DNA of 64,000 bases from a bacterium (GTDB lineage: Bacteria; CAIWAD01): the NCBI GenBank assembly GCA_030429345.1, contig JAUIFJ010000020.1:22402-86401 (forward strand), given 5' to 3'. The translations under genes and the position numbers were made by a program. A model generated the notes under the pieces. The model had not been told where the DNA came from. It did not search any database and worked only from the letters and a program-made list of their open reading frames with translations. Shown piece by piece: positions 10,222-60,843 of this stretch (within the stretch, counting starts at the first letter, position 1; each line of letters opens with the position of its first letter).

Positions 10222-11220
10222 GTGAGACAAGTCCTTGCCACCTGCCTATGCATCGCCCTGCCGCTGGCCCTGGGCCAGGCCTTCACCCGCGCCGGCACCA
10301 CGGCGGCCCAGTTCCTCAAGCTGCCGGTCAGCGCGCACGCGGCGGCGCTCTCGGGCAGCGTCGCCATCCTGCCGCCGGGCTGGTCCGGACGGGGCAACTC
10401 CGCCGAGGCGATGCTGCTCAACCCGGCGGCCCTGGCGGGCATCGGCCAGGGGGCGGTCAGTTTCGGGCAGCAGCGCATCTGGCAGTCGCTGGATCACGGC
10501 ACGGCGGCCGGCTGCGTCCCGATCAGCGATCGCCTGGCCCTGGGCCTGGGGCTGAACTGGCTTTCCGCCCCCGATCAGGAGATCACGACCCTCGAGCAGC
10601 CGGACGGAACCGGCGCCCACTACAGCTACAACGACCTGGCCCTCACGCTGAGCGCCGGCCTGCGCATGAACGAGCGCCTGGCCTTCGGCATGACGGCCCG
10701 CGGCATCCGCCAGGACCTGCACAACGAGCGCGCCCAGGGCTGGGGCCTGGACATGGCCCTGCTGCTGCAGACGCCCTGGCGCGGAGTGCGCCTGGCCTGC
10801 GCCATCGAGAACTTCGGCACGCGCATGGAACTTGAAGGGGAGGACCTGCTGATTCCTTCGAGCGACGGCCGCGTCGCCGCCCTGCAGACGGAAGACTTCG
10901 CCCAGCCCCTGCTCTTCAAGCTGGGCCTGGCGGCTCCGCTCTGGGAAGGGGAGGGCCAGAAGCTGGAAGGCAGCCTGCAGGCCGAACACCCCAACGACAA
11001 CCGCCAGCGCCTGGGCCTGGGCCTGGAATACGACTTCCGCGAACGCTTCCAGCTGCGCGCCGGCCGGGTCTTTCGCCACGACCTGCTTAGCTGGAGCGCC
11101 GGCGCCGGCCTGCGCCATGAACTCTCGCGCAGCGGCCTGGGCGTGCGCATCGACGCAGCCTGGGTGCAGAGCGAGCTTTTCGAGGACCTGAAGCTGTTCA
11201 CCGTGGGGCTGGAATTCTAG
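10222..11220 (+). CDS. PorV/PorQ-like outer-membrane beta-barrel protein
   Basis: 332 residues. The GTG start at 10222 follows a strong AGGAGG box. The protein has a short signal peptide, then AGTTAAQFLKLPVSA and a segment of small residues leading to MLLNPAALAG, the hallmark N-terminus of the PorV/PorQ/UPF0164 family (a porin-like FadL-fold barrel). The remainder alternates strands and ends in Phe (GLEF). PorV shuttles T9SS cargo to its anchoring machinery in Bacteroidota. Here it sits at the end of an operon with a TonB receptor and a sorted protein, which fits that role, but the true secretion system of this organism is inferred. Its last about 155 bp are duplicated downstream at 13832-13987. 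Confidence 0.85.
   Translation: MRQVLATCLCIALPLALGQAFTRAGTTAAQFLKLPVSAHAAALSGSVAILPPGWSGRGNSAEAMLLNPAALAGIGQGAVSFGQQRIWQSLDHGTAAGCVPISDRLALGLGLNWLSAPDQEITTLEQPDGTGAHYSYNDLALTLSAGLRMNERLAFGMTARGIRQDLHNERAQGWGLDMALLLQTPWRGVRLACAIENFGTRMELEGEDLLIPSSDGRVAALQTEDFAQPLLFKLGLAAPLWEGEGQKLEGSLQAEHPNDNRQRLGLGLEYDFRERFQLRAGRVFRHDLLSWSAGAGLRHELSRSGLGVRIDAAWVQSELFEDLKLFTVGLEF
11065..11220 (+). repeat. Direct repeat A1: 3' end of the PorV-like gene
   Basis: These 156 bp encode the C-terminal about 51 residues of the PorV-like protein. They recur at 13832-13987 with roughly 94% identity over the conserved core. I count about nine differences downstream of position 11076, most of them synonymous. Confidence 0.95.
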
Positions 11221-11288
11221 GGGAGATATCCAATTTCTATACTGTCGAGTAACTTGTAGCTCATTTCGTTTGAAGCACAAGAATGGAT

Positions 11289-11315
11289 CGCCCCTGTCCG
11301 GGGCGGGGTCTTTTT
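11289..11315 (+). terminator. Probable Rho-independent terminator after the PorV operon
   Basis: A six-bp CGCCCC/GGGGCG stem with a 5-nt loop is followed by GGGTCTTTTT. It lies between the PorV-like stop and the next signal-peptide start and would end the receptor operon. Confidence 0.65.
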
Positions 11316-11318
11316 CGT

Positions 11319-13826
11319 ATGTCACTCGTTTTCATCCTCTTCCTGTTCCTTGCTCGGGAATCCTCCGCTGCGCTCATCCACTTTCCCGGCGATACGGACT
11401 CGCTTCAAGCCGCAATTGACATGGCGATGGAAGGGGATACGGTGCTGGTTGCACCGGGAATCCATCAACAGCGAATTGTAATCCCAAGCGGTAGACTCAC
11501 ATTGGCGTCCCATTTTCTCTTGTCCCAAGACTCCGCGGATGTTCACGACACAGTGTTGGACGGGGAGAATCTTGGAAGTGTCATCCGAGTAGAAATGCAA
11601 AGCGGTGACACGCTACGTTTAGTTGGATTAACGGTAACTGGAGGACACGCCGAGTATGAATACGAGAGTTCAACAACTACAGGTGGTGGCACGCATGTAG
11701 AGGATGTCGGGTTTATGGAACTGCGTTCATTGCGATATGTGGGAAATACTGGTGAACGATCTGGAGCGGCATTCTACTTCCAGAATCTGGAGGGAATGCA
11801 TCGAGGAGACTTTTTAATGAGCGATATCCAGAGTATCGAGAACCATCGAACAGGGTATTTCGGCCATTCCTTCGATGCATTCAAGATTTATCGCGCCAGC
11901 TCGATCATCGCTAAGGGACTGCGGTTTACCAGTCAATTGGATTGGGCAGCACGTGGATTCCATTTGCAAGCCGAGGATTCCTTGTTTGTCCAAGGTGTAA
12001 CCATTGAAGGGCTAAGCAACCAGGAATCCTATGTATTCCGCTGTCGAATCGGTGGCTCCGGACGAGGAATCGTGCGAGATGTGCGAATTCGGGCGAATCA
12101 TTACCTGGATCGGTCCCTGTTCCTTGCATCCAGCGCAGACTGGGGTCATTTGCAGGTTCGAAACATCGTGTTCGAGAACAATGAGTACTTGAACGAAGAT
12201 GGTCAGTACGAGCTGAATGACAACAGTAACGTATACATAGGCTCAATCGAAAATGCGAGCGTGGATGTAGACAGTATTTATGTACGAAGCAATCGCCTGC
12301 AAGGTGCACTGCGTTTGCTGACCGTCGTGGGCCCCGGCCAGGTGCGAAATCTCTATGTTGAAGAGAACGAGTGCGGCCCTGCTCTGGGGCCGGGTGGTTT
12401 CGTTTGCTATTTGGACCGCAACATCAGCATTCGCGACAGCTACTTCAGGAACAATTCTGTCAGGATATGGCGTGAACCCGGTTCAGAACCATATACTGAG
12501 GGTGGCACTTTATTGCTCCATAGGACCTTCGATGAGGACAGTGTCCTTGTGCAGAATCTCGAATTCAGTGGAAATGAATACCTGGATCCGGATGATCACC
12601 CACTCGAGCAAATCGTATCCGATCTACAAAGCATGGCATACGAAGCCAATCCAACGAATGGTAGAGTTTATGCCGGGAATCTGCCAGGGCAGGCACGGTA
12701 TTTTCTAATGGATTCTTGTTTGTTCGTAGACAACTCCTGCCCAGTAATACTACCGGAAGTAAACACCCCTTTCGGCGATGAACTTGTTGGAAGTACCGTA
12801 TTGATCGGTGGTGCAACTGGTGAGGAAGCACCTGGTACACGATGCATTATTCGAAACACGCGCTTCGTAAACTGTGACGATGGTGCTCTCCAAGTGATTA
12901 ATCCCGCCGAATTCCTCCAGATTCAAAACCTAGACATTGTCGACTGCAAGAGGATGGGGCTTCGTGTCCGTAATTTCGACGGCCCCAATACTCAGGTCAG
13001 GATCGAAAATGTCCTTGTTCATAACCTCCAGAAACAGTGGGCCTTCATGTCCTACCCTTGGGACTGGAGCGCCCAGTTTGCCCTCTCCATCAGCTCGACC
13101 GAAGAGGGTGGATCACTTGTTTCGAATGTGACGGTCAGTGAGTGCGACGTGGTACTATTAACTTCGAACTACAACTTGAGTTCCGGCAACAAGCTGTGGA
13201 ACAGCTTGCTGTGGGACAATGAATATGAAAGCTTCTACCGACCGAACACAGGCGACCTGGAGTATGCCTGGTGCGTCCTGCCCGAGGAGCGTCCGGGAGA
13301 AGGCAACCAGGTCAATGTCAATCCCTTCTTCGATGAGGAGCTTGGAGCTCCCTATCTGTCTCCCTTTTCGCCATTGATCGATGCGGGTTCGCCGGACTCT
13401 GTATTTCATGATCGTGAGGATCCAGCCATGCCGGGTGCAGCTCTTTGGCCCAGCCAGGGCGGATTGCGCAACGATATCGGGTATACGGGCGGCCCGGGCG
13501 CAATGAGTCTGGAGCAGCTTGTCAGCGTACCGGCTCTTCCCCGTGCACAGGCCGAATTGCCGAAGACGCTCTCCCTGTTCTCGCCTTCGCCAAATCCCTT
13601 CAATCCAGCAACCACCTTGCGTTTCCATCTGTCTCGAGCGGGAAAAGTGGAAATGGACCTGTTCAACATTCGAGGGCAACGGGTCAGGCGAATACTGGAG
13701 GAGCCCTTGTCCGCGGGCGAGCATCAGCGACTCCTGCATGCCGGGAATCTGTCCAGCGGCCTTTACATTGTCCAGCTGAAGGCGCATGGCGCAATGGAGT
13801 CGAAAAAGCTTCTGTTGCTCAAATAG
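11319..13826 (+). CDS. Secreted right-handed beta-helix-like protein with FlgD-type tail (lower GC, inserted)
   Basis: 835 residues. An ATG at 11283 is in frame but would start before the terminator hairpin. The ATG at 11319 directly opens a signal peptide (LVFILFLFLARESSA) and is preferred, although no strong ribosome-binding site is seen. The body has repeated short strands with turn Asn/Gly/Asp (SLQAAIDMAMEGDTVLV, NITVSEC-like coils), as in pectin-lyase-fold proteins. Base composition drops towards 50% GC and codon use differs from the neighbours until the tail. The last 85 residues carry SPNPFNP and a SGLYIVQL ending. The gene lies between two copies of the PorV 3' end, which points to acquisition. 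The ligand or substrate is unknown. Confidence 0.85.
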   Translation: MSLVFILFLFLARESSAALIHFPGDTDSLQAAIDMAMEGDTVLVAPGIHQQRIVIPSGRLTLASHFLLSQDSADVHDTVLDGENLGSVIRVEMQSGDTLRLVGLTVTGGHAEYEYESSTTTGGGTHVEDVGFMELRSLRYVGNTGERSGAAFYFQNLEGMHRGDFLMSDIQSIENHRTGYFGHSFDAFKIYRASSIIAKGLRFTSQLDWAARGFHLQAEDSLFVQGVTIEGLSNQESYVFRCRIGGSGRGIVRDVRIRANHYLDRSLFLASSADWGHLQVRNIVFENNEYLNEDGQYELNDNSNVYIGSIENASVDVDSIYVRSNRLQGALRLLTVVGPGQVRNLYVEENECGPALGPGGFVCYLDRNISIRDSYFRNNSVRIWREPGSEPYTEGGTLLLHRTFDEDSVLVQNLEFSGNEYLDPDDHPLEQIVSDLQSMAYEANPTNGRVYAGNLPGQARYFLMDSCLFVDNSCPVILPEVNTPFGDELVGSTVLIGGATGEEAPGTRCIIRNTRFVNCDDGALQVINPAEFLQIQNLDIVDCKRMGLRVRNFDGPNTQVRIENVLVHNLQKQWAFMSYPWDWSAQFALSISSTEEGGSLVSNVTVSECDVVLLTSNYNLSSGNKLWNSLLWDNEYESFYRPNTGDLEYAWCVLPEERPGEGNQVNVNPFFDEELGAPYLSPFSPLIDAGSPDSVFHDREDPAMPGAALWPSQGGLRNDIGYTGGPGAMSLEQLVSVPALPRAQAELPKTLSLFSPSPNPFNPATTLRFHLSRAGKVEMDLFNIRGQRVRRILEEPLSAGEHQRLLHAGNLSSGLYIVQLKAHGAMESKKLLLLK

Positions 13827-13831
13827 TCGTC

Positions 13832-13987
13832 AGGTGGTTCCGCCACGACCTGCTTAGCTGGAGCGCCGGCGCCGGCCTGCGTCACGAGCTGGCCCGCAGC
13901 GGCCTGGGCGTGCGCATCGACGCCGCCTGGGTGCAGAGCGGGCTTTTCGAGGACCTGAAGCTGTTCACCGTGGGGCTGGAGTTCTAG
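13832..13987 (+). pseudogene. Truncated copy of the PorV-like gene 3' end (direct repeat A2)
   Basis: It encodes RWFRHDLLSWSAG through GLEF and a stop in the same frame as the end of the PorV-like gene, with only two clear residue changes (Ser to Ala, Glu to Gly) after the junction. It lacks any 5' part, start codon or ribosome-binding site. It begins six bases after the stop of the beta-helix gene. This is the left-over 3' end created when the lower-GC gene entered, or the incoming homologous copy. Confidence 0.9.
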
Positions 13988-14180
13988 GCACTCTTTCAAA
14001 GTCATGCCGTTTCTGTGCTACTTTGCCCGTTTTCTGGACTGGAAGGGGCGCTACGGGTTTCATTTTGACTTTGGTCAATACCACCCCAACCCTTGTATTC
14101 CAACATGATGCGGATCGCCCCACTTGGCGATCGCGAAGCTGTCGCAACAACCCCCACCGCACCGAAACCGGGAAGAGCGC

Positions 14181-22029: not shown

Positions 22030-22959
22030 ATGCCGATCCACCCATCCCACATCAGCCTCACCGAGCTGAGGTATTTTATCGCCCTGGCTGAGATCGGCCA
22101 TTTCGGGCGCGCGGCGGCGCATTGCAATGTGAGCCAGCCGACCCTGAGCGCCGGGCTGAAGAAGCTCGAGGAGAGCCTGGGAGTCCAGCTCTTCGAGCGC
22201 GGACACCGGCTGCTGGGCATGACGGAGGAGGGCAAGCGCCTGCTGCTCCGCGCGCGCCGCGTGCTGGCCGAAGCCGAGGAGCTGGTCGAGGAGGCGATGG
22301 TCGCCGGCGACCGCATGCGGGGCAGCCTGCGCCTGGGAGCGATTCCGACCATCGCGCCGGACCTCCTGCCCTGGCTGGTGCCCTGGCTGGATCGGGAAGA
22401 AGAGCAGCTGCGGGTCATCTGGCAGGAAGAGCGTACGGCGGATCTGCTGCTCGGCCTGCAGGAATTCCGCCTCGACGCCGCCTTCCTCGCCCTGCCCCTG
22501 GAGGCGGACGGCCTGGAATGCCTGCCTCTCTACGAGGAACAGTTCCGCCTGGTCATGGCCGAAAGCTTCCAGCCGCCCTTCCAGGCGCCGCCGTCGAAAG
22601 AGCAGCTGCAGGGCCAGCCGATCCTGCTGCTGACCGAGGGCCACTGCCTGCGCGACCAAGTGCTTGAACTCTGCGGCAACCAGCCCCGCGAGGGCGAGGC
22701 GGCCGACTACCGCGCCGCCAGCCTGGAAACCCTGATGCAGTTGGTGCGCACCGGCCGCGGCATGACCCTGCTGCCGGCCCTGGCCGCCGAACGCAGCGCA
22801 GGCCTCAAGGAGCTGGCCTTCGACGGCCCGGCCCCGGGGCGGCGCATCGCCCTTTGCTGGCGCTCAACTTCTCCGCGAAGGGCAGCCTTCCGCCGCCTGG
22901 GGGAGCGCCTCCGCGAAGCCCATCCCAAGGTGCCGGGAATGTCCACGCTCTCGGAATAG
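22030..22959 (+). CDS. oxyR: OxyR-type peroxide-sensing LysR regulator
   Basis: 309 residues, matching OxyR (about 305). The N-terminal winged helix-turn-helix reads LRYFIALAEIGHFGRAA and VSQPTLSAGLKKLE. The effector domain holds the redox pair Cys206 (GHCLRDQ) and Cys215 (ELCGNQ), spaced exactly nine as in E. coli Cys199/Cys208, the sites whose disulfide switches on peroxide defence. The start at 22030 has no ribosome-binding site. A TATATT hexamer lies ten bases upstream, so the message may be leaderless. An upstream in-frame start at 21913 would add a non-conserved extension. It converges with purU across a repeat array. Confidence 0.93.
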   Translation: MPIHPSHISLTELRYFIALAEIGHFGRAAAHCNVSQPTLSAGLKKLEESLGVQLFERGHRLLGMTEEGKRLLLRARRVLAEAEELVEEAMVAGDRMRGSLRLGAIPTIAPDLLPWLVPWLDREEEQLRVIWQEERTADLLLGLQEFRLDAAFLALPLEADGLECLPLYEEQFRLVMAESFQPPFQAPPSKEQLQGQPILLLTEGHCLRDQVLELCGNQPREGEAADYRAASLETLMQLVRTGRGMTLLPALAAERSAGLKELAFDGPAPGRRIALCWRSTSPRRAAFRRLGERLREAHPKVPGMSTLSE

Positions 22960-23602
22960 AAGAGGTCGCACGGAGTGCACGGAGAAGGAAAGAGAAGGCC
23001 CTTCGCTGTCATCCCGCGGCTTGACCGCGGGATCCTTGTCCGCGTCGCAGACAGGACTGGCGTCTTGCATACTCTCCCGGTGTTGCACGTCCACTGGCCC
23101 TCCGGTCTTCGACGCGGAGCAGGATTCCGTGGTCAAGCCACGGAATGACAGCCATGGGAACTCCAATCCGCGTCGCAGACAGGACTGGCGTCTTGCAGGC
23201 TCTCCCGGTGTTGCACGTCCACTGGCCCTCCGGTCTTCGACGCGGAGCAGGATTCCGTGGTCAAGCCACGGAATGACAGCCATGGGAACTCCAATCCGCG
23301 TCGCAGACAGGACTGGCGTGTTGCAGGCTCTCCCGGTGTGGCACGTCCACTGGCCCTCCGGTCTTCGACGCGGAGCAGGATTCCGTGGTCAAGCCACGGA
23401 ATGACAACCATGGGAACTCCAATCCTTGTCGCAGACAGGAATGGCGTGTTGCAGGCGCTACCGGTGTTGCACATCCGCTGGCCCTCCGGTCTTCGACGCG
23501 GAGCAGGATTCCGTGGTCAAGCCACGGAATGACAGCCATGGGAACCATTCATTCCTCTGTGATCTCCGTCTTCTCCGTGCCCTCCGTGCGAGCTCTTCCT
23601 TC
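22960..23602. other. 643-bp gene-free repeat region between oxyR and purU
   Basis: It contains, in order, a CACGGAG-type inverted repeat arm (22959-22988), an inverted palindrome (23011-23033), four 128-bp tandem units (from 23040) and the opposite inverted arm (23571-23599). Open frames across it follow the repeats and are not genes. The two flanking genes converge here, so it probably also serves as their termination zone. Confidence 0.85.
23040..23551. repeat. Four tandem 128-bp repeat units each holding a 23-bp palindrome
   Basis: Unit starts are at 23040, 23168, 23296 and 23424, exactly 128 bp apart. Units 1-3 differ by only a few bases and unit 4 is the most diverged. Each unit has ATTCCGTGG, a 5-base TCAAG loop and CCACGGAAT (23124-23146, 23252-23274, 23380-23402, 23508-23530). 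The period is not a multiple of three, so it is not a protein repeat. Confidence 0.95.
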
Positions 23603-50291: not shown

Positions 50292-52094
50292 ATGGACAAG
50301 CAACTGATCAGCCGCATTGAAGCGGAGTGGGATGCGCGGCGCGAGAAGCTGGCGCAGCGCATGGACAAGGCCCTGGCCGGCCTGCGCGAACTGCGCGAGC
50401 TGGACCGCCGGCGGCGCGAAGGACATCGCAGCGAGGAGCTGGGGCGTTCCCTGGGCAGCTTCGGCGGCTCCGTGTTCGACACGCGGGCCCTGAGCACGGT
50501 GCTCGGGGGAGAGGGGGAAAGCGGCGGGCTGGAAGCCGATCGTGCCCGCCGGGTCGCCGACTGGCTGGGCGAGCTGGAAGCCCTGCGCGCCGACTGGCCG
50601 AAAAACCTGCCTGCCCCGCTGCTGGCCGACGGCAAGTCGGATACGGCCGAGGTGCTGGGACAGGCCGCCGCGCGCATCGAGCCGATGGCGCGTCTCTTCG
50701 CCCTGCTGCGCAAGGCCGAGATGGAGCGCCGCGCGCGCTACCGCCCCGAGCTGCACGACGAGTTCTTCGCCGCCTTCGGACCGGCGCACCTGGACAGCGG
50801 CGAACGGGCCCTCTGTCCGCCGATCGCCGTTGAACTGGCCGCCACGGAGGCCCGAAGCAGCGCCCGGCTGGTGGAGCTGCTCTCCAGCGGCCTGCCGGTC
50901 AAGGTCTTCCGCCTGGCGCCGGCGCCCGGGCTGGACGGCAGCCTGGACCGCGGCGAGCTGGACGTCGAACTGCTGCCCCTGGGCATGCAGCGCGTATACG
51001 TCCTGCAGACGACGCGCGAGCACCCGGCCTTCGAAGGCCAGCTGCGCAAGGCGCTGGGCAGCCCGCGCGCGGCGCTGCTCAACCTGCTCTGGCCGCAGGG
51101 GACGGAAGAGGACTTCGCAGGCATCTGCGCCCGCGCCGTCGCCTCCAGGGAGTTTCCCGTGCTGTGCTACGACCCGGAAGGAGACGAGCGCTTCGCGCTG
51201 CGCTTCGACCTGGAAGGCAACCCGGACCTGGACGCAGAGTGGGCGGCGCTGGAACTGCATCACCGCGAAGGCGGCGAGGCCCGTGTGACGGCCTCGCGCA
51301 TTACGGGGGGCGAGTACTACGCCGCCCTGCCCGGCTCGGAAGGCTGGTTCCGCGAGCTGGACCCGGAGTCGCGCCAGGAGCACATCGGCGCCTGGTTCGC
51401 CATGACGCCCGCCGACCGGCGTGTGACGACGCCCTTCGTGCAGCGCGTGCGCGAGGAGAAGCTCGAGTGCCTGAAGCCGGGACGGGAACTGCTGGTGCAC
51501 ATTACCCAGCGGGCCCAGGTCTGGGAGACCCTGCGCGAACTGGCGGGCCTGCACAATCCCCATGTAGAACGCGCCAGCGCCGAGCTGGAGCGCCGCTACC
51601 GCGAGGAGAGCGAACAGCGCATTGCCCTGGAGCAGCAGAAGCTGGCGGAAAACCTGGCGGCCCAGAAGCAGCAGGCGGTCGAAGAGGCCATGGGCAACCT
51701 GGCCGCCCGCCTGCTGGGCCTGAAAGAAGGCGGCCTGAGCCTGGGCGCTCCTGCCAGCGCCGCGCCCCCCTCTGCGCAAACCGCTGCACCTTCAATGGAC
51801 GGCGCTTCGGCCCCGGCCGCGGCCGAGGAAGAGCCCGAGGCCGACGCCGACGAGTTCTGGATCGACAGCGCCATGTGCACGGCCTGCGACGAGTGTGTGA
51901 CGATCAATCCGGAGATCTTCGAGTACAACAAGAACAAGCAGGCGGTGATCAAGAACCCCGCCGGCGGCCCCTACAAGGACATCGTCAAGGCCGCCGAGAA
52001 ATGCAGCGCGAAGATCATCCACCCCGGCAAGCCGCTGAACCCGGACGAAAAGGGCCTGGACAAGCTCATCGAGCGGGCGAAGAAGTTCATGTAG
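50292..52094 (+). CDS. PFOR-like protein with C-terminal single-cluster ferredoxin domain; function unknown
   Basis: 600 residues, with AGGAAGACC upstream. The N-terminus is helical and charged (about 1-160). About 165-440 resembles a region of the large protein at 38858-42901 (shared LLSSG-x-PVK, here 196-204; AL-x-SP/AP-x-AL; CYDPEGDERF against VYDPALSTEEAGRF) and has no TPP motif. After a coiled coil (about 415-480) and an Ala/Pro linker comes a ferredoxin domain with Cys529, Cys532, Cys535 and Cys571, one [4Fe-4S] cluster. It follows korAB and is probably an electron carrier or adaptor. The last 80 bp are duplicated at 53658-53739. Confidence 0.85.
   Translation: MDKQLISRIEAEWDARREKLAQRMDKALAGLRELRELDRRRREGHRSEELGRSLGSFGGSVFDTRALSTVLGGEGESGGLEADRARRVADWLGELEALRADWPKNLPAPLLADGKSDTAEVLGQAAARIEPMARLFALLRKAEMERRARYRPELHDEFFAAFGPAHLDSGERALCPPIAVELAATEARSSARLVELLSSGLPVKVFRLAPAPGLDGSLDRGELDVELLPLGMQRVYVLQTTREHPAFEGQLRKALGSPRAALLNLLWPQGTEEDFAGICARAVASREFPVLCYDPEGDERFALRFDLEGNPDLDAEWAALELHHREGGEARVTASRITGGEYYAALPGSEGWFRELDPESRQEHIGAWFAMTPADRRVTTPFVQRVREEKLECLKPGRELLVHITQRAQVWETLRELAGLHNPHVERASAELERRYREESEQRIALEQQKLAENLAAQKQQAVEEAMGNLAARLLGLKEGGLSLGAPASAAPPSAQTAAPSMDGASAPAAAEEEPEADADEFWIDSAMCTACDECVTINPEIFEYNKNKQAVIKNPAGGPYKDIVKAAEKCSAKIIHPGKPLNPDEKGLDKLIERAKKFM
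52013..52094 (+). repeat. Direct repeat B1: 3' end of the PFOR-like ferredoxin gene
   Basis: The coding end (GATCATCCACC to ATGT) is repeated at 53658-53739 with one internal mismatch in about 80 bases; the stop codons differ (TAG here, TGA in the other copy). Confidence 0.95.
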
Positions 52095-52110
52095 ACGTGA
52101 AGCAAAGCCG

Positions 52111-52156
52111 AACAAGATGGCCCCCGGTGCGAGTTGCGACCGGGGGCCTTCTTGTT
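52111..52156. terminator. Bidirectional Rho-independent terminator
   Basis: An 18-nt arm (AACAAGATGGCCCCCGGT) pairs with ACCGGGGGCCTTCTTGTT, with one imperfect position and a loop of about 10 nt. A and T tracts on the two sides allow termination of the + strand Rnf/Kor run and the - strand gene at 52172. Confidence 0.88.
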
Positions 52157-52171
52157 GATCGTTCTTGCCGT

Positions 52172-53449
52172 CTAGGGCAGGTAGACGACTTTTGTGCGTT
52201 CACTTTGCCCGTTTTGCTCCAGCTGGATGAAATACACGCCAGCGGCGCTCAGGCCGGGATGTATAGGAACCCGATTCATGCCACTATGAAGCTGGATCGA
52301 TTCGCGGTATACCTCCGCTCCCCGGACATCGAACAGCCGCAAAGTGCCAGGGCCCTGATTGCGTACGTGAACAATCAGATTCACTCTGGGATTGAAGGGG
52401 TTCGGATAGACGGCTTCAATCTCGAGGGCACGGGGCACATGCAAGTCTGATCGTTCTTCGACCGATACCGCAGGAGCTCGTGTGCGTGCAACACGGAAGC
52501 CGATGGCACGGGTTTCGCCTTCACTCAGGCTGGTTGGCGGCTGATTAAACCTCACCACGCAGGAAACATGACATGTATTACTAGTGATGTAGTCCCCGCC
52601 TCGCAGTACCTTGTTAACGCCGGTCTCTGGACCAAAATAGTTTGTGTCATCTGCGCCATAGCTAGCATTCCAGTCGTGTACCCACTCCATCACATTGCCG
52701 CCCATATGCATGACTCCGGCTGGAGTGGCACTGGAGGGTAGACTTCCAATAGGGACAGTGGAATTACTACAACCGCCACCACCGAAGTTGCAGTTTGTAT
52801 TGCAATCGGGGTCTTCACCGCCCCAGGGATAGTAACGTGAACTAATGCCTTCATGTTGGTAGTGTCGTGCTACAAACTCCCACTCCGTTTCTGTCGGCAG
52901 TCGATACGGGCCTTCTAGAGAGTCATCTGCGAAAGCATGCAGGTCATTCCAGTCATAGGCGGGAGGGACTCCTGCTTCCGTTGAGCCTTCAAGAAATGTG
53001 GTGAGCCAGTTGCAGAATGCAACTGCACCATGCCAAGAAACTGCCACGACAGGGTGATTCTCGTAACCGGACAAAACTTCGATTGAGTCAATACTGGCAT
53101 TGTAAACAAGCTTGCTGAATGCGTGATTCATGTCGGTGACCTCTGCACCAGTACTTGATCCCACGCGGATTTGTGATGAGCCTGTCTGACGATAAAGACG
53201 ATCGCCGGACCCGAGCCCCCAATTCAGAAACTCAGCGAACTTCTCATTCGTCACCTCATGTTTTGAAATGTCAAAGCCGTAGGTCAAGGTCATGGTCCGA
53301 GTCTCGCTCTCGCACCCCGGTACATCTCCCACAGCAAATGTTGCACCTTCAGGTTCGATGTAGACGTACTCGATGAGATCGGCCGAGACGGGGTGAGCAA
53401 TCAGAATTGAGCCTGTGGCAATGAGACAGAACAGCTGCAAGTTTCTCAT
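52172..53449 (-). CDS. Secreted formylglycine-generating-enzyme-like (SUMF1/FGE) protein with FlgD-type tail (lower GC, inserted)
   Basis: 425 residues. GGAGAATC precedes the ATG, and the signal peptide is about residues 1-23. The FGE-sulfatase/SUMF1 fold is seen from ISKHEVTNEKFAEFLNW through HPVVAVSWHGAVAFCNWL, YRLPTETEWEFVAR, GGNVMEWVHDW, KVLRGGDY and AIGFRVART. The copper-binding cysteine pair of true formylglycine enzymes is not evident, so it may be a non-catalytic or binding relative. The tail has YPNPFNPR and AAGVYFIQL. Its composition is clearly AT-richer than the neighbours, and its upstream 200 bases are very AT-rich. It lies between copies of the neighbouring gene's 3' end. Confidence 0.88.
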   Translation of the reverse strand: MRNLQLFCLIATGSILIAHPVSADLIEYVYIEPEGATFAVGDVPGCESETRTMTLTYGFDISKHEVTNEKFAEFLNWGLGSGDRLYRQTGSSQIRVGSSTGAEVTDMNHAFSKLVYNASIDSIEVLSGYENHPVVAVSWHGAVAFCNWLTTFLEGSTEAGVPPAYDWNDLHAFADDSLEGPYRLPTETEWEFVARHYQHEGISSRYYPWGGEDPDCNTNCNFGGGGCSNSTVPIGSLPSSATPAGVMHMGGNVMEWVHDWNASYGADDTNYFGPETGVNKVLRGGDYITSNTCHVSCVVRFNQPPTSLSEGETRAIGFRVARTRAPAVSVEERSDLHVPRALEIEAVYPNPFNPRVNLIVHVRNQGPGTLRLFDVRGAEVYRESIQLHSGMNRVPIHPGLSAAGVYFIQLEQNGQSERTKVVYLP

Positions 53450-53657
53450 GGATTCTCCATCTGGAAAGCGGTTAACTGAGATTTAACAGAAGGATTTGAC
53501 AGGATGCCGAATCATTCAATAGATTTTACCAATTGATATCGTGTTTTTGGCGAATAGAAAGTTGCTTCTCAATTTAATCCGCTAAATGGGTTGCTCAATT
53601 CATCAAGTATGCGACTACGCGGAGAGTGCTATTCAGAATTTTAAATTGAAATGCTTC

Positions 53658-53739
53658 GATCATCCACCCCGGCAAGCCGCTGAACCCGGACGAAAAGGGC
53701 CTGGACAAGCTCATCGAGCGGGCGAAAAAGTTCATGTGA
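53658..53739 (+). pseudogene. Truncated 3' fragment of the PFOR-like ferredoxin gene (direct repeat B2)
   Basis: It encodes IIHPGKPLNPDEKG... to a stop, identical in protein to the last 26 residues of the upstream gene. A short GAAATGC a few bases before the junction also matches the parent gene, suggesting a small deletion. The following terminator may be the original gene's own. Confidence 0.9.
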
Positions 53740-53765: not shown

Positions 53766-53799
53766 AGCCCCTGTTCGCCGCACGGCGAGCGGGGGTTTT
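53766..53799 (+). terminator. Probable terminator behind the truncated fragment
   Basis: An imperfect stem GCCCC..TTCGCC / GGCGAG..GGGG with a GCAC loop is followed by TTTTC. It is well placed to have served the intact ferredoxin-like gene before the insertion. Confidence 0.65.
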
Positions 53800-56981: not shown

Positions 56982-57305
56982 ATGCCTCCGGGAATCGTCA
57001 TCATTGCGGTCGTTGCCATTGTCGGTGGCCTGATCACCGACGTGATCAAGACCCACTACAAGGCCAAGGCCCAGCATTCCGCCGGCGCGGAGGAACTGAA
57101 GCGCCTGCGCGACGAACTGAAGCGCCTGGAAGGGCAGCTCAAGGACAGCGATCTGGGCCACCGGGTCGAATGCCTCGAAACCATTGTCAACGATACGGAT
57201 TTCAAGATCAACCGCGTGCTGGAACGGCTTGAGCGGCCGGACCCCGGCAGGCCGGACCCCGGCAGGCCGGACCCCGGCAGGCCGGACCCCGGTAGGCCGA
57301 ACTAG
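56982..57305 (+). CDS. PspB-like small membrane protein with RPDPG repeats
   Basis: 107 residues. AAGGAG lies 6 nt upstream of the ATG. One N-terminal membrane helix (about 3-20, GIVIIAVVAIVGGLITDV) is followed by a charged coiled coil (ELKRLRDELKRLE) and VECLETIVNDTDF, a pattern like PspB of the phage-shock response (helix, coiled coil, leucine zipper). The tail is four exact RPDPG pentapeptides from a 15-bp repeat. Psp partners are not seen nearby, so the assignment is by resemblance only. Confidence 0.65.
   Translation: MPPGIVIIAVVAIVGGLITDVIKTHYKAKAQHSAGAEELKRLRDELKRLEGQLKDSDLGHRVECLETIVNDTDFKINRVLERLERPDPGRPDPGRPDPGRPDPGRPN
57237..57296 (+). repeat. Four 15-bp tandem repeats encoding RPDPG
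   Basis: CCGGACCCCGGCAGG four times, with one base changed in the last unit. It is in frame and ends the PspB-like gene, and is liable to length change by slippage. Confidence 0.95.
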
Positions 57306-60219: not shown

Positions 60220-60714
60220 ATGTCCATGGAAACACTGGACAGCGCCTCTGCCTCCCTCTACAGGGATCTGAAACAATCGCGCCCCTTCCGCAGCCTGGAA
60301 GAGGCCCTGCTGCTGAGCCTGCTGATGTGCTCCCAGCGCATGAGCGAACAGCTGCATCGCATTCTGAAAACGGAAAACCTGAGCGATGTGCAGTACAACA
60401 TCCTGCGCATTCTTCGCGGGGCGGGGGAGGAAGGGCGAAGCTGCGGCCAGATCAGCGAGCGCCTCGTGACGCGAGTGCCGGATGTGACGCGGCTGCTGGA
60501 CCGGCTCGAGGCCCGCGAACTGGTGCGCCGCGAACGCAGCAGCAGCGACCGGCGGGTCGTGCTCAGCTACGCCACGCCCAGGGCATTGACCCTGCTGGAA
60601 AAGCTGGATCCCCTGGTCAGCAGCGGAATCCGCCGCAGCATGGAACATCTGGACGAAAAGCAGCGTCTGAATCTGCTTGCAAGCCTTGAAAGGCTCAGGG
60701 AAGGATTGAAGTAG
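60220..60714 (+). CDS. MarR-family transcriptional regulator
   Basis: 164 residues from the ATG at 60220; a second ATG at 60226 is equally possible. No ribosome-binding site is seen and the -10 box is adjacent, so a leaderless start at 60226 is plausible. Winged helix: LSDVQYNILRILRGAGEEG, ISERLVTRVPDVTRLLDRLE and RRERSSSDRRVVLSYATP, the usual MarR recognition helix and wing. It probably represses itself and perhaps the following yceI-like gene. The ligand is unknown. Confidence 0.92.
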   Translation: MSMETLDSASASLYRDLKQSRPFRSLEEALLLSLLMCSQRMSEQLHRILKTENLSDVQYNILRILRGAGEEGRSCGQISERLVTRVPDVTRLLDRLEARELVRRERSSSDRRVVLSYATPRALTLLEKLDPLVSSGIRRSMEHLDEKQRLNLLASLERLREGLK

Positions 60715-60715
60715 A

Positions 60716-60828
60716 AGGATGAAGTATGAAGGTTGAAGGTTGAAGTTTTGGCTTCCCGTTGTGATACGGTGTGATGCACGCCGGGAATCTCACTTCAACC
60801 TTCAACCTTCGTACTTCAAACTTATCCT
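60716..60828. repeat. Long imperfect inverted repeat between marR-type gene and yceI
   Basis: Arms 60716-60746 and 60792-60828 share 19 consecutive complementary bases (ACTTCAACCTTCAACCTTC and its complement) plus flanking matches; the loop is about 45 nt. It could act as terminator, protein-binding site or dispersed repeat. Confidence 0.85.
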
Positions 60829-60843
60829 TGAAAGGGACACACG

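Follow-up and report, generated by a model that had tools for sequence, protein, structure and literature searches.

Integrative elements and CIMEs target the 3′ ends of genes, where they leave a restored gene end on one side and a partial copy on the other; CIMEs carry no integrase and can stack, and each family has one fixed att site. The locus reported here differs from them in belonging to a set of about ten targets that are unrelated and have no core in common. Insertion with long target duplication (Nobusato, Uchiyama, Ohashi and Kobayashi, 2000, Gene 259:99-108, as cited in PMC1643837, PMC3031569, PMC4978471 and PMC2749054) was described for restriction-modification genes of Helicobacter pylori by comparison of strains, according to the first three of these citing papers, and in such accounts it is likewise known beside horizontally acquired genes. 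They list low-GC foreign genes, a long direct target repeat of variable length and no mobile-element gene, and here we found a foreign-looking block inside a repeat of host sequence, no mobile-element gene and repeats of variable length. Compared with the H. pylori cases as the citing papers outline them, ours differ in their genes (surface, toxin-antitoxin, Fic and respiratory), in a strong bias towards gene 3′ ends, in high density and in codon evidence for an imported gene end. Our best reading of the locus is insertion with long target duplication, a known phenomenon that is unusually dense here.

A laboratory precedent comes from conjugation in E. coli, where DNA homologous to the end of lacZ was integrated by a single crossover of a partly degraded, re-circularised molecule, and where 56 of 60 clones of Lac- recipients carried partial duplications, 109-950 bp long in the 14 that were sequenced (PMC3240628). 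As at our locus, a partial gene-end duplication lay next to added DNA; the experiment concerned a laboratory plasmid construct that entered by conjugation, not transformation, and natural cases were outside its scope (PMC3240628). Homology-facilitated illegitimate recombination, including that in T6SS immunity-gene arrays, resembles our cases in its single homologous anchor, its single non-homologous joint and its stacked older gene-end leftovers (PMC5361080); its usual outcome is a loss of host DNA roughly equal in size to the insert (PMC3240628), whereas here host DNA is duplicated, not deleted. Gene gain by a single crossover that keeps the host gene whole is a known but rarely documented route.

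Two duplicated gene ends in one window

The window, that is, the whole 64,000-nucleotide stretch of DNA that was analysed, contains an 80-nt direct repeat (52013-52092 versus 53658-53737) whose copies are 79/80 identical and lie 1645 nt apart (BLAST E 1.6e-35). The repeat brackets a single gene, and the features of the locus are as follows.

50292-52094, plus strand: host gene of 600 aa (ORF, Pfam), intact, with a C-terminal Fer4_13 ferredoxin-like domain
52013-52092, plus strand: left member of the 80-nt repeat, forming the 3′ terminus of the intact host gene, whose TAG stop codon is at 52092-52094
52093-53657, no strand: inserted block of 1565 nt, GC 0.51
52111-52156, plus strand: hairpin with 18-nt arms (52111-52128 and 52139-52156), an inverted repeat that is 94% complementary
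52172-53449, minus strand: cargo gene of 425 aa, FGE-sulfatase (E 5.5e-34) with a Por_Secre_tail sorting domain (E 9e-7)
53450-53657, no strand: AT-rich leader of the cargo gene, reaching the right junction
53658-53739, plus strand: right, orphan copy of the gene end, with the same last 26 codons and its own stop TGA at 53737-53739
53767-53799, plus strand: hairpin with a T-run behind the orphan copy (read by eye)

PFOR-like genes lie upstream of the host gene, and no third copy of the repeat was found in the genome. What the first-pass annotation had read from this locus was borne out. It had claimed that the last about 80 bp of the gene ending at 52094 recur with one mismatch, which is the 79/80 match over 80 nt, and that the right copy has no 5′ part; the last 26 codons and a stop are all that is present there. 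Between the copies it had placed an AT-richer, opposite-strand FGE-like gene with a sorted tail and an AT-rich leader, with which both the Pfam matches and the base composition agree (GC 0.51 in the insert versus 0.71 upstream and 0.63 downstream). Its statement that integrase, transposase and terminal inverted repeat are absent held as well: the block contains one gene, no terminal inverted repeat was found in it, and none of the genome's 12 tyrosine recombinase matches (PF00589) is on the contig of the repeat. The terminators that it had seen behind each copy correspond to two hairpins, the left one directly behind the host stop and terminator-like, without a clear T-run after it, and the right one probably being the native terminator; a consensus terminator scan called neither. 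No tRNA or structured-RNA target was found in the window, and a diversity-generating retroelement, considered on account of the FGE fold of the cargo, was rejected, the genome having no match to the PF00078 reverse transcriptase.

The best relative of the cargo protein in its own genome is 32% identical. No empty site came to light in this genome's own relatives: among four other genomes of the phylum none was close, the host protein being 32% identical at best within the family, and a contig scan gave PFOR-beta relatives at <=65%. In 22 homologues of the host protein the C terminus falls at the same or the next residue as in both copies, which indicates that both are canonical gene ends of the host family. 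The single mismatch between them is synonymous, and the pair appears too young for codon changes to reveal whether one of its ends was imported.

The same window holds a second gene-end duplication, missing from the first-pass annotation, with copies of 151 nt that are 93% identical (11071-11221 and 13838-13988). We treat it as the same phenomenon; its host gene, inspected by eye, probably encodes an outer-membrane protein.

10222-11220, plus strand: host gene of 332 aa
11071-11221, plus strand: left copy, the 3′ end of the intact gene; stop codon TAG
11283-13826, plus strand: cargo gene of 847 aa with Por_Secre_tail and a weak beta-helix match, GC 0.52
11288-11308, plus strand: terminator-like hairpin behind the left copy
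13838-13988, plus strand: orphan gene-end copy, 93% identical, 12 nt behind the cargo stop

Three other repeats were observed in the window: a tandem repeat with a 128-nt period and copies up to 98% identical (22911-23545), a 15-nt short tandem repeat (GGCCGGACCCCGGCA) at the end of a reading frame (57235-57294), and a 41-nt inverted repeat, 85% complementary, with GAAGTATGAAG-like units (60706-60832), similar units being found behind the gene end at C40:116604.

Gene-end duplications in this and other genomes

With a simple home-made gene finder we went through 1.53 Mb of the genome (36%), looking for direct repeats separated by less than 10 kb, one copy being inside a gene and its partner outside any same-strand gene. 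Nine gene 3′-end duplications were found, about six per Mb, and in all nine the truncated copy is downstream, which is the geometry of insertion (P 0.002; this and the other statistics were set up after the first cases had been seen); no 5′-end duplication in insertion geometry was present in the 1.53 Mb. A tenth case consists of a whole small gene duplicated around a Fic gene (C75:304789-306700). The repeats measure 76-185 nt at the nine loci and 297 at the Fic locus. Annotated cargo at the other loci comprises a PIN toxin with a Phd-like antitoxin, a HigB-like toxin with an HTH antitoxin, cytochrome oxidase III/IV and a tandem pair of sorted beta-helix proteins (of which one was scanned), and a 7-kb cargo block holds a LamG-like surface protein, recognised by eye; there was no integrase among the annotated cargo of the surveyed loci. 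The locus C75:219420, also among the nine, differs in carrying cargo of normal GC and may represent another kind of event. At C75:60913-61046 a 134-nt island contains the truncated ends of two convergent genes and has different cargo on each side, so that two insertions appear to flank one old gene junction.

Comparison of the ten loci revealed no motif common to the repeats or the junctions, isolated pairs sharing only 11-15 nt. At several loci the stop codons of the two copies occupy the same position but differ (TAG/TGA, TAG/TAA or TGA/TAA), and no uncompensated frameshift is left in the orphan copies. Candidates excluded from the survey were palindromic REP-type repeats around short blocks (C9:49697, C9:115319 and C8:76005) or around an apparent RAYT transposase, identified by eye (C75:130061), and tandem paralogues (C75:113112 and C8:34090). 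Two arrangements deserve separate mention. At C9:1-4789 (L124) two homologous secreted-protein genes stand in tandem, and behind each there is a copy of one and the same host gene end (by eye), with the contig end beyond. At C46:128604-131924 (L140) four copies of a 59-133-nt coding repeat are spaced at about 1 kb, and homologous membrane-protein genes occupy the intervals; these are possibly stacked cassettes of the gene-end-duplication kind.

An identical scan detected no 3′-end case in three control sets: 0.29 Mb from another genome of this family, 0.64 Mb from 42 loci of other genomes and 0.4 Mb from four single-contig genomes. In total the controls, with G051 set aside, amount to 1.33 Mb and gave 0 cases versus 7.8 expected at the rate of this genome. 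The scan of other genomes for gene-end duplications, the kind of check that had been proposed for surface-protein genes, was empty in these 1.33 Mb and positive in G051, a complete 5.0-Mb genome that is cyanobacterial judging by its genes. The 0.4-Mb stretch of it that was scanned contains three 3′-end cases and two nominal 5′-end cases in insertion geometry, one of the latter clear; gene-end duplication is thus neither unique to the present lineage nor strictly limited to 3′ ends.

Congeners of G051 provided empty sites. One insertion, of a VapC-like toxin, follows a small gene; G051, G064 and G065 have it, whereas G060, G061 and G063 lack it and their gene end runs directly into the right flank. 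G051, G060 and G064 carry an AAA-ATPase-like insertion that G063 and G065 do not have; its repeat takes in one gene's end together with the beginning of the following gene, and both genes are intact. The occupied/empty pattern differs between congeners, G060 being empty at the VapC-like site and occupied at the AAA-ATPase-like one (L247, L251, L252; L257, L258, L260), and the two insertions form a natural set on which to test the mechanism. At both insertions the truncated copy runs on without a break into the native right flank, and together with the empty sites this indicates that the truncated copy is the old gene end in this genus and that, at least there, the architecture reflects biology rather than assembly error. 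By analogy with these cyanobacterial cases, the orphan copy at 53658-53739 is probably the old native gene end in the genome studied here.

The same comparisons bear on whether the draft could have joined two strain haplotypes that differ in having or lacking the cargo. The assembly is a draft of 92 contigs without read data, and the joining of haplotypes would likewise yield synonymous differences and different stop codons. We nevertheless consider an artefact of this kind highly improbable: the 1.53 Mb read contains no N, the sequence before the orphan and the sequence behind it do not overlap, the 134-nt island is truncated on both sides, the same architecture occurs in complete genomes with empty sites in congeners, and 0.93 Mb of other drafts gave 0 cases.

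Origin of the duplicated ends and a candidate mechanism

To see how the two copies had diverged, we compared their codon differences with a simulation in which a fresh duplication decays and the intact gene keeps only synonymous changes. The nine loci have 21 nonsynonymous codon differences versus 33.4 expected under decay (1 of 2000 simulations was as low), and the seven loci without indels have 12 versus 25 expected (0 of 1000 simulations). Two loci, C75:60972/62270 (D) and C13:118513/125722 (C13), show nonsynonymous changes only. This overall shortage suggests that part of the divergence probably dates from a time when the two gene ends were both functional, in separate lineages, and that the inserts probably brought related, diverged gene ends along; the evidence comes from the other loci, the 80-nt case contributing one mismatch.

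These counts weigh against a true target duplication, in which the cargo entered a staggered break or was added by template switching, with 80-300 nt copied, so that both ends were native and diverged later. The variable repeat length and the geometry fit such an event, the single mismatch of the 80-nt pair is compatible with it, and in the G051 genus both copies look native, the truncated one having drifted at its 5′ edge. It is nonetheless an unlikely origin, given too few nonsynonymous differences over the nine loci, orphan copies free of uncompensated frameshifts and the lack of Ku for end joining.

The preferred reading is that a horizontally acquired gene was inserted behind the host gene with duplication of its 3′ end, likely by a single crossover of a re-circularised donor fragment; we give it a probability of about 0.5. 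The donor fragment would have carried the 3′ end of a related version of the host gene, its stop, the hairpin and the surface-protein gene. After entering the cell it would have been trimmed, closed into a circle again by end joining and integrated through one RecA-type crossover within the gene end that it shared with the chromosome. The host gene would thereby retain its promoter and its full reading frame, and the old gene end would be displaced behind the cargo as an orphan, together with its original terminator. The circular intermediate, the crossover and a relative as donor are all inferred. ComEC and DprA were found in the genome, so DNA uptake is possible and competence putative; no Ku (NHEJ end joining) was recognisable in it. 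A single crossover accounts for the intact gene, the orphan end, the variable repeat lengths and the absence of both integrase and motif. The bias towards 3′ ends may reflect selection, as a block placed behind a gene leaves its promoter untouched.

The first-pass annotation had left the choice between a Campbell-like crossover and a site-directed insertion. Insertion as such is well supported by the nine 3′-end cases, the two empty-site comparisons and the truncated copies contiguous with native flank in the G051 genus. The Campbell-like form fits best because the ten repeats are unrelated and without a motif, the annotated cargo is free of integrase, the gene ends probably diverged in part as functional genes and the laboratory precedent exists. 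The site-directed form came out weak, since each locus would need its own recombinase. One version of it has a recombinase acting in trans that would integrate cassettes site-specifically at gene 3′ ends, with a cassette attachment site that restores the gene, as in a satellite or CIME-like element. The gene is indeed restored, one locus looks stacked, the genome has 12 tyrosine recombinases, and 5 of 10 repeats end at the stop codon (within 4 nt of it, as tested after the fact), a pattern that random crossover does not predict and that keeps a gene-end attachment site in contention. Set against the roughly ten unrelated targets with no common core, and annotated cargo that lacks a recombinase, this version is distinctly improbable.

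A broader proposal, which we regard as doubtful, builds on the single crossover. The lineage would gain adaptive genes largely as integrase-free cassettes, each composed of cargo and the 3′ end of its target, that integrate, stack and perhaps excise by homologous recombination; such a homology-addressed system would be integron-like without the integrase.

Entry of single genes without integrase or transposase mostly escapes notice, as a double crossover leaves no scar behind. A gene-end duplication is such a scar, legible from one genome alone, and it reveals the anchoring gene as well as whether the insert came with a version of that gene. Such duplications can be counted automatically, and here they mark surface-protein, toxin-antitoxin and Fic genes. 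Their density in this genome, together with the empty sites in the cyanobacterial genus, makes the route directly testable.
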